From Candidatus Nanohalarchaeota archaeon (GTDB lineage: Archaea > Nanohalarchaeota > Nanosalinia > Nanosalinales > JAFCCC01), in assembly GCA_017610385.1 (NCBI GenBank), contig JAFCCC010000012.1, positions 1 to 16,138 on the forward strand: a stretch of DNA of 16,138 bases, in the 5' to 3' direction. Under the pieces are notes generated by a model. The model made no database searches, had not been told where the DNA came from, and was given only the letters and a program-made list of their open reading frames with translations. Position 1 is the first letter of the stretch. Each line of letters starts with the position of its first letter. This document shows, in pieces, positions 1-16,114 of this stretch. The position numbers were made by a program, and so were the translations under genes.

Positions 1-210
1 TTTTCGCTTAAGCCTTTACTAAAAGGCTTATTTTGCTTGAATTGGAAATGCATTAATTTCCGATTTAGGAAACTTAACAAGTTTCCGTGAGCTTTTATCT
101 GAAAAGCTCATTTTCTTTTGGCTTAAGCCTTTTACTAAAAAGGCTTAGTGAGTTACACTCGTAACTCGCTGTTTAATTTTGGCTTAAGCCTTTTACTAAA
201 AAGGCTTATG
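1..210. repeat. Tandem array of seven short hairpins
   Basis: Seven stem-loops follow one another about every 30 nt: 9-17/22-30, 40-49/56-65 (one G-T pair), 68-75/79-86, 88-96/102-110, 124-133/138-147, 150-156/161-167 and 185-194/199-208. The first, fifth and seventh share the stem TAAGCCTTT(T) with loop ACTA; the fifth and seventh are identical. Four units (near 1, 31, 116, 177) start with a leader close to TTTTnGCTTRA. In the AAGCC units a preceding GGCTT gives the AAGCC arm two possible partners. There is no open reading frame. The array ends about 60 bp upstream of rpl21e and may continue beyond the window. The same unit type recurs inside the tRNA-Pro intron at 15938-16078. Unequal stems and the lack of unique 30-40 nt spacers argue against CRISPR. 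Function is unknown. Confidence 0.9.
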
Positions 211-6338: not shown

Positions 6339-7009
6339 AATTTAATAAGGGGTGTGCCTTCAATAAGTAATTTTGAAACATCCCCAACAAAAGAATATGT
6401 TTTATTTTCAAATAAGAAAACCGCAGAGCCTTCAAAATCTTTTATAGAAAGAGGTTTATCTTCTAAAAAGATTCTTGCTCCGGAAGAATTAACTTGCCCA
6501 TTAACTGAATCAAAACTAAATCCAGTTTTTGGAAATCCATTAATCTCTAATTTTTTAGGAATTAATTCTTTTGAAAATAACTTGGCGTTTTTAAGACTCA
6601 CGTCTCCGAATTTAAGTTCTCCTGCGTATCCATTTATACTAAGAACCTCTCCGAAAGTAAACAAACCCTTAAAATCAAGAATATGCAAAGTCAGACTACT
6701 GGCATTTGTAAAAACCTCTGATCCTCTTACTTCTACTGAACTTACTCTGGGATTATATGTTAGCTTTATTTCAGATACCGGGGTACTAAATATTTTAGTT
6801 CTAACTGGAAATTCATCGGTTGTAAACAGAGCAGAGATAGGAATTTCAGAATCTGGTGAAAAAGCTCCAAATAGATCAGTTACACTCCAACCGCCTGTTT
6901 TAAAATTACTAGTACTGATATCTGAAATATTAATTGATCCTTGCGCCATGCCGATTGCAATACCCCATAATGTAATAAATACTGCAATCAAAACTTTCCA
7001 ATCGAACAT
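6329..7009 (-). CDS. Exported beta-rich hypothetical protein
   Basis: A 226-residue protein I cannot place in a family. The N-terminus is a clear export signal (one lysine, hydrophobic core residues 6-21, possible cleavage after GMA at 20-22). The remainder is polar with alternating hydrophobic residues typical of beta sheets, short repeated themes such as LSINGYAGELKFGDVSLKN, and no cysteines or second membrane segment. The reverse strand is preferred over a similar-length forward frame because only the reverse product has a signal sequence and compositional sense, and because TTATAAAAT (7028-7036 on this strand) lies about 23 nt upstream of its ATG. It converges on the forward gene at 6134 with no gap. 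A role at the cell surface is likely. Confidence 0.68.
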   Translation of the reverse strand: MFDWKVLIAVFITLWGIAIGMAQGSINISDISTSNFKTGGWSVTDLFGAFSPDSEIPISALFTTDEFPVRTKIFSTPVSEIKLTYNPRVSSVEVRGSEVFTNASSLTLHILDFKGLFTFGEVLSINGYAGELKFGDVSLKNAKLFSKELIPKKLEINGFPKTGFSFDSVNGQVNSSGARIFLEDKPLSIKDFEGSAVFLFENKTYSFVGDVSKLLIEGTPLIKFTK

Positions 7010-7027
7010 AAATATAAATTGAATTGT

Positions 7028-15459: not shown

Positions 15460-15632
15460 GCGACTGTAATCTACCGGTATGATTCAAGCTTCCCAAGCTT
15501 GCTGAGCGGGTTCGATACAAACTGCTGTCAGCTTGACCCTTACAGGGGGTTAATAATAACCCACTTTAAAGTCCGAGTACTCGGACTTTTTAACACTTTT
15601 ATCAGCAGTTTGCGAAAATCCCGCCAGTCGCA
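15460..15632 (+). tRNA. tRNA-Gly(CCC) with an intron in the T-loop
   Basis: The exons form a complete tRNA: acceptor stem GCGACTG (15460-15466) with CAGTCGC (15625-15631), discriminator A at 15632, and a D-arm at 15469-15483. The anticodon arm is CAAGC-TTCCCAA-GCTTG (15485-15501) with anticodon CCC at 15492-15494, and the T-stem is GCGGG (15506-15510) with CCCGC (15620-15624). After removal of 15517-15618 the T-loop reads TTCGATT, the standard sequence, and the mature tRNA is 71 nt without encoded CCA. The anticodon loop is uninterrupted. Odd points: A10-U25 and C15 opposite A48 are unusual, so the D-arm/variable-loop tertiary pair is altered. Upstream, TATATTTTAT (15424-15433) could be the promoter, shared in a 39-bp divergent gap with the NIF3-like gene. 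Confidence 0.9.
15517..15618 (+). other. T-loop tRNA intron with canonical bulge-helix-bulge
   Basis: A 102-nt intron between tRNA positions 59 and 60. The BHB is textbook: the T-stem as outer helix, a central 4-bp helix TTCG (15511-15514)/CGAA (15613-15616), 3-nt bulges ATA (15515-15517) and AAT (15617-15619), and an inner 10-bp helix CAAACTGCTG (15518-15527)/CAGCAGTTTG (15603-15612). Cutting after the second base of each bulge yields exactly the standard T-loop. Inside lie two more hairpins: GGGTTA/TAACCC (15547-15562) and a perfect 22-nt palindrome with arm AAAGTCCGAGT (15568-15589). No protein is encoded. Confidence 0.9.
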
Positions 15633-15892: not shown

Positions 15893-16114
15893 TGGGTCAG
15901 CCGAGACTCGAACTCGGGTCTGGACCTCTTTCTTAGCGTTTAATAAACTCAAACATTTGATTTTAGCTTAAACTTTTTATTAAAAAGTTTTATTTTATTT
16001 TCGCTTAAAGCTTTTTGTTTTTATTTTGCTTAAGCTTTTATTTGAAAAGCTTATTTGCTTGAGCTTTGTGAAAGCTCACCCGAAGGTCCAATGATACCAC
16101 TACACTACCGACCC
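15893..16114 (-). tRNA. tRNA-Pro(CGG) with a 151-nt anticodon-loop intron
   Basis: On the reverse strand the 5' exon (16114-16079) gives the acceptor GGGTCGG, a D-arm with loop AGTGGTA, anticodon stem GGACC and loop TTCGGG with anticodon CGG (16082-16080). The 3' exon (15927-15893) gives A38, GGTCC, variable loop AGAC, T-arm CCGAG-TTCGAGT-CTCGG, CTGACCC and discriminator A; CCA is not encoded. All stems pair (one G-U in the acceptor, one T-T in the D-stem). The intron sits at the canonical 37/38 position. Mature length is 71 nt. Downstream, a run of six T (near 15860) could terminate transcription. Both tRNAs in this corner of the genome are intron-containing. Confidence 0.92.
15928..16078 (-). 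repeat. tRNA-Pro intron built of hairpin-array units
   Basis: Read on the forward strand, the intron holds GTTT/AAAC (15938-15948), TCAAA/TTTGA (15949-15960), AAACTTTTT/AAAAAGTTT (15970-15990), a damaged unit around 16007-16020, TAAGCTTTT/AAAAGCTTA (16031-16053) and TGAGCTTT/AAAGCTCA (16060-16078). Leaders TTTTAGCTTAA, TTTTCGCTTAA, TTTTGCTTAA and TTTGCTTGA precede the last four, matching the leaders and stems of the array at 1-210. The last hairpin ends exactly at the 5' splice site. The splice sites fit only a relaxed BHB: TTC pairs with GAA (15930-15932 on this strand) but G35 faces A, and the inner helix is AGC/GCT plus TTT/AAA with mismatches. Confidence 0.85.

Follow-up and report, generated by a model that had tools for sequence, protein, structure and literature searches.

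Hairpin units of a dispersed palindromic repeat in a tRNA-Pro(CGG) intron of an Aenigmatarchaeota-like archaeon

The tRNA-Pro(CGG) gene near one end of the window (the whole stretch of 16,138 nucleotides analysed here, contig C12 of the source genome G000) contains a 151-nt intron composed of hairpin units. By sequence comparison, we established that these units belong to a repeat family dispersed through G000 and linked to tRNA genes in the tRNA sense, that the exons around them are spliceable, and that the same unit occurs in four genomes. We consider it probable (roughly 0.72) that a dispersed non-coding palindromic repeat, tolerated in intergenic sites and in sites that are processed away, has come to fill the 37/38 intron of this gene and made it longer. 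G000 (788 kb, 18 contigs, 93.5% complete) is Aenigmatarchaeota-like, and the closest matches for the hairpin feature were all named Aenigmatarchaeota. The features that carry the argument are as follows.

16079 to 16114, minus strand: tRNA-Pro(CGG) exon 1, up to G37 (direct reading; BLAST placement; ARAGORN on the spliced tRNA)
15928 to 16078, minus strand: tRNA-Pro(CGG) intron of hairpin units, 151 nt, position 37/38 (relaxed bulge-helix-bulge fold)
15893 to 15927, minus strand: tRNA-Pro(CGG) exon 2 (BLAST placement; ARAGORN)
16060 to 16078, minus strand: hairpin unit 1, TGAGCTTT-cac-AAAGCTCA then AAGCAAA, beginning exactly at the 5' splice site
16031 to 16053, minus strand: hairpin unit 2, TAAGCTTTT-caaat-AAAAGCTTA then AAGCAAAA, an exact member of the family core (core match C12:16028-16053)
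15998 to 16022, minus strand: degenerate unit between units 2 and 3, reading TTTTCGCTTAAAGCTTTTTG on the plus strand (sequence)
15970 to 15990, minus strand: hairpin unit 3, a derived copy, AAACTTTTT..AAAAAGTTT (C12:15966-15992, three mismatches to the core)
1 to 210, minus strand: array of seven hairpins upstream of rpl21e, starting at the contig edge (z = -10.7)
6 to 30, 121 to 147 and 182 to 208, minus strand: core units within that array

On the minus strand the gene reads GGGTCGG...TTCGGG, the intron, then AGGTCC...GACCCA. ARAGORN in plain mode called no tRNA in the window, the unspliced tRNA-Pro(CGG) gene included; the joined exons gave a tRNA-Pro(cgg) call in which all four arms pair, so that removal of the intron restores a canonical tRNA. 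This call confirms the gene and the intron at 15928-16078, both of which had been proposed at these coordinates from the letters alone. The junction, at the canonical 37/38 position, folds as a relaxed bulge-helix-bulge (BHB) made of the anticodon stem, a 6x6 internal loop and an AGC/GCU helix; owing to a repeated G, the boundary may move by 1 nt. No Rfam family matched the window at gathering thresholds, and the intron is thus without a group I model match. We rejected a twintron, in which every hairpin is a splice unit, because the perfect hairpins have no bulges. The window also holds a tRNA-Gly(CCC) gene (15460-15632, plus strand) with a 101-nt T-loop intron (15516-15616) that forms a textbook BHB and bears hairpins of a different kind (TCCGAGTACTCGGA).

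In the tRNA sense the intron presents TGAGCTTTcacAAAGCTCA-AGCAAA at the 5' splice site, then TAAGCTTTTcaaatAAAAGCTTA-AGCAAAA, the degenerate unit and the derived third hairpin; the core of the seven array hairpins is TAAGCCTTT..AAAGGCTTA-AGC(C/G)AAAA. The leaders and stems of the intron do match those of the array, as the sequence-only reading had claimed for units 1 and 2 and for TTTTCGCTTAA, which we found at 1-11 and at about 15999-16009. Three perfect hairpins with a stem of at least 8 occur in the intron, against an average of 0.16 in dinucleotide shuffles. When compared with 69 kb of G000 stretches, the intron gave a best match of 91.5 bits (best of 200 shuffles, 39.2) and 23 matches of at least 38 bits (0.02 per shuffle). 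Elsewhere in the genome, the 5' flank of tRNA-Asp resembles the intron most (87% over 75 bp). The initial 25 nt of the intron also appear at C3:27015-27039 (100%) and C9:73-97 (96%), in both cases 2 nt beyond another tRNA.

The family core, T(A/G)AGCC-TTT-loop-AAA-GGCTTA-AGC(C/G/A)AAAA, is found genome-wide in G000, with 31 matches at up to three mismatches (none for a reversed control pattern) and about 24 exact copies (again none for the control). The unit T[A/G]AGCC-TTT-loop-AAA-GGCTTA-AGCNAAAA frequently forms mosaic cassettes of 60-190 bp together with other hairpins; cassettes of 80-190 bp inside G000 contigs share 89-98% identity, and the 1-210 array matches 17 places above 86 bits. Stem variants remain paired (TAAGCC/GGCTTA, TAAGCT/AGCTTA, TGAGCT/AGCTCA, TAAACC/GGTTTA and CGAGC/GCTCG), evidence that is biased because the units were gathered as hairpins. 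Only 5 of 30 BLAST ends at mosaic breakpoints fell inside hairpins, though hairpins make up 44% of the array, which in this small sample suggests shuffling at unit edges.

Arrays occupy about 16 sites in G000. Nine either interrupt a tRNA gene or lie no more than 150 bp from one, positions that account for about 2.3% of the genome (rough binomial 2e-11); among non-coding sites alone the enrichment is modest, about 2-4 fold depending on the assumption. Two of the sites are introns, in tRNA-Pro(CGG) and in tRNA-Pro(GGG), where the hairpin repeat fills 276 nt and the joined exons are called Pro(ggg) by ARAGORN. The proposal that a repeat had inserted and expanded in a tRNA intron is supported by this second intron, filled by the same dispersed family. 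At the other seven the array lies within 150 bp of the tRNA: 3' of tRNA-Ser, tRNA-Leu and the tRNAs at C3:26939 and C6:4.1-4.3 kb, and 5' of tRNA-Asp, tRNA-Leu and a tRNA near C9:6.4 kb. One further site is in the 16S-23S spacer, and the remaining sites are near protein genes or contig ends. The spacer (C6:1-114, C9:1-175) apparently holds a tRNA followed by the hairpin array. The tRNA-Trp intron (about 176 nt) carries a related module that lacks the core and runs in the opposite direction. The hairpin-bearing introns, at 151, about 176 and 276 nt, are the longest found in G000, where many tRNA genes and introns have no hairpin unit.

Contig ends of this metagenome-assembled genome (MAG) fall at hairpin arrays (C3:1, C6:1, C9:1, C9:42590, C11:176423 and C12:1), so the assembly breaks at arrays and the count of arrays is too low. 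C3, C6 and C12 share an identical 114-bp end; because this is probably a single repeat node that broke the assembly, we did not count these ends as independent copies.

Orientation follows the tRNA. All 31 tRNA-linked core copies whose direction could be read lie in the tRNA sense (9 in G000, 15 in G060, 2 in G061 and 5 in G062). The remark that every unit runs in one chromosomal direction holds for the intron and the 1-210 array and fails genome-wide, where arrays occur on both strands of G000; since tRNA-linked cores follow the tRNA strand, it reflects a coincidence of two sites. The opposite orientation would place U-tracts beside the hairpin in the pre-tRNA. A terminator role for the tRNA copies was rejected, as their tRNA-sense strand has A-runs, not U-runs, after the hairpin.

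We scanned 84,980 species for the exact core and found it outside G000 in four contigs of three MAGs, all Aenigmatarchaeota: CSMAG_1110 (G060), CSMAG_1028 (G061) and a Lake Pavin genome (G062). All five exact copies in these contigs are inside tRNA genes. The exact core was absent from the 27 other Aenigmatarchaeota genomes searched and from the viral contigs searched. In CSMAG_1110, the element (TAAGCC-TTTT..AAAA-GGCTTA-AGCCAAAAGGAG..CTTCC) occurs in T-loop or anticodon-loop introns or a leader at about 15 tRNA sites; 15 of its 18 genuine copies are in tRNA genes or a leader and three are outside tRNAs. Near-identical T-loop introns occur in different tRNAs in CSMAG_1110 and in two tRNAs of CSMAG_1028, whose introns fold as textbook BHBs. 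The Lake Pavin genome has a 31-nt T-loop mini-intron, barely more than a single hairpin, and further copies in a second T-loop, a D-loop, a 3' flank and intergenic sites. The idea of the intron as a safe site fits what is seen in these genomes: the repeat lies in segments that splicing or end-processing would remove, which in the relatives include introns of the T-loop, the anticodon loop and the D-loop. Splicing may in addition yield an excised hairpin RNA, as the sequence-only reading had suggested, possibly one that is stable or functional. With the Rfam tRNA model, six tRNAs and no more are found in CSMAG_1110 (E <= 0.1), probably because most of its tRNA genes are interrupted by element-bearing introns. 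Many units in this genome carry a nested repeat, CATACCCTCAGGGGCACAAG, in their loop (stretches L125, L136, L145, L147 and L148), indicating that elements insert into elements. There too, an element is flanked on both sides by copies of the 13 nt that begin tRNA-Pro(CGG) (GGGGCCGTAGTGT; L151, about 1400-1560).

The sequence-only reading had proposed comparing the tRNA-Pro(CGG) intron in close relatives, where a short intron without units would show expansion. Among the genomes compared, which are distant relatives and all MAGs, another Aenigmatarchaeota genome (G005) has an intronless tRNA-Pro(CGG), and in that of CSMAG_1110 the 37/38 intron is 83 nt long, lacks hairpin units and shows no resemblance to the 151-nt intron. 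The CSMAG_1110 gene also has a T-loop intron, with a unit of compensated stem (CGAGC/GCTCG). The intronless gene and the unrelated 37/38 intron together suggest that the intron site is shared and its filling lineage-specific, as expected of insertion and expansion. Two findings had been named that would speak against insertion, orthologous introns of the same length but unrelated sequence, or generic AT-rich palindromes; the unrelated CSMAG_1110 orthologue answers to half of this, and the latter does not describe these hairpins. Because the units are a demonstrable genome-wide family, the CSMAG_1110 orthologue fits lineage-specific filling better than refutation.

We weighed several other explanations for these hairpins. 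That they are generic AT-rich palindromes, alike by chance, would draw on an AT-rich genome with other hairpins present, but we give this next to no credence and rejected it on the reversed-pattern and shuffle controls (31 core matches against 0; 91.5 bits against at most 39) and on the restriction of the exact core to Aenigmatarchaeota among 84,980 species. They may instead have a function in the RNA, for instance as processing signals or as scaffolds of long introns and trailers, and be kept by selection rather than spread. Stems that vary yet remain paired, a strictly sense orientation and the frequent position just 3' of a tRNA or at a splice site would all suit such a role; it is nonetheless improbable, given the many G000 tRNA genes and the orthologous introns without hairpins, the mosaic variation in unit number and order, and the absence of the core from 27 other Aenigmatarchaeota genomes searched.

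RNA-mediated intron spread is a serious rival, since the first bases of the element are where most T-loop and anticodon-loop introns start. On this account the units would be pieces of BHB introns passing from tRNA to tRNA, perhaps by reverse splicing and DNA copying, and the intergenic arrays would be side products. Near-identical T-loop introns in different tRNAs of CSMAG_1110 and CSMAG_1028 fit this account, as does the uniform sense orientation (31/31). Most such introns, and the window intron, start exactly at the element's TAAGC or TGAGC, and the 5' arm of the T-loop introns can also pair with the intron 3' end to form a BHB. We nevertheless judge it unlikely: intron spread alone does not explain copies that are part of no BHB (those behind the stop codons of S9 and peptidyl-tRNA hydrolase, in intergenic sites and in the 16S-23S spacer), the perfect hairpin units are not themselves BHB motifs, and many G000 tRNA introns have no unit. 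A still less likely variant is that the excised intron, as a circular or linear hairpin RNA, reinserts in sense into pre-tRNAs or spacers and is then copied into DNA. Such RNA-stage movement, if true, would constitute a protein-free class of archaeal tRNA-intron retroelement.

Returning to the dispersed repeat as the favored explanation, copy number and distribution suggest that it has been mobile in the evolutionary sense. The family would have spread within an Aenigmatarchaeota clade, its copies moving as DNA, either through some enzyme or because hairpin DNA underwent template switching, recombination or gene conversion. It would be tolerated where harmless, in tRNA introns excised by the splicing endonuclease EndA, in the 5' leaders and 3' trailers of tRNAs, immediately behind stop codons and in the 16S-23S spacer. 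In the window it would have made the 37/38 intron of tRNA-Pro(CGG) longer by filling it. Selection at tRNAs, for example against U-tracts able to end transcription, might then leave the sense copies. The stop codon of the S9 gene in G000 is the TAA that opens a hairpin unit (C9:8181-8183, stretch L158), and a peptidyl-tRNA hydrolase-like gene in CSMAG_1110 likewise stops at a unit's TAA (stretch L148, near 690), hinting at a TAA-related insertion preference.

We found EndA in all four core-bearing genomes. In G000 (93.5% complete) only a single-unit protein of 181-184 aa was found. The G062 protein resembles the ARMAN-2 enzyme 4FZ2 in direct comparison, and the enzymes of G060 to G062 are of the ARMAN-2 type, with G060 and G061 assigned as close relatives of the G062 protein. 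These three are mutually 56-64% identical, so their hosts are well separated. The ARMAN-2 type is an epsilon-2 EndA, reported in the account given in PMC12397907 to accept varied substrates. A search for a Y1/RAYT (IS200-type, PF01797) transposase returned none in the four genomes, which are incomplete MAGs, and no target-site duplications were identified.

These results bear on the origin, spread and growth of archaeal tRNA introns: a concrete, sequence-recognisable repeat appears to fill introns, trailers and leaders, and its size varies across four genomes, from a 31-nt mini-intron through introns of 60-150 nt to a 276-nt array. A comparison of strains could directly test the idea that a transposable element becomes a tRNA intron. 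The repeat also carries a warning, since tRNA finders miss genes with element-bearing introns, as the six Rfam calls in CSMAG_1110 illustrate. We found no paper on this repeat in the open-access literature.

Several known systems are comparable. In Thermoproteales, tRNA introns have been described as transposing (Fujishima et al. 2010), by a mechanism that the summary in PMC4090602 gives as unknown. In the present case, which concerns a DPANN lineage, the common item is a palindromic unit that is not confined to tRNAs and also builds tandem mosaics. Mitochondrial repetitive hairpin-forming or double-hairpin elements are short, dispersed, arranged in tandem mosaics and without an encoded protein (e.g. 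PMC2800124). The present units share their conserved stems, variable loops and intergenic and RNA-gene sites, and differ in their archaeal host, their place in spliced tRNA introns and their orientation, which is fixed with respect to the tRNA. Bacterial REP/BIME palindromes come with RAYT (TnpA-REP) transposases; our units resemble them as interspersed mosaics of palindromic units between genes, but have another sequence, lie inside tRNA genes as well and were found with no Y1/RAYT in four genomes. Rickettsia palindromic elements insert inside genes, where they are tolerated and retained in the mature product, whereas the repeats tolerated here are removed by splicing or end-processing. Finally, a 1.9-kb mobile element, which carries a putative recombinase, disrupts a tRNA-Thr gene of Caldiarchaeum (Sugahara et al. 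2012, PMC3293823), likewise an insertion leading to tRNA intron gain in an archaeon; the units here are non-coding and about 25-60 bp long.

A second set of three hairpins accompanies some tRNA genes. It consists of CTTGTGAA..TTCACAAG and AAAACTC..GAGTTTT, plus CAAACTT..AAGTTTG in some copies, and lies directly upstream of several tRNA genes with its order kept (L154 about 6920-7010, L157 about 380-460, L160 and the L072 flank).
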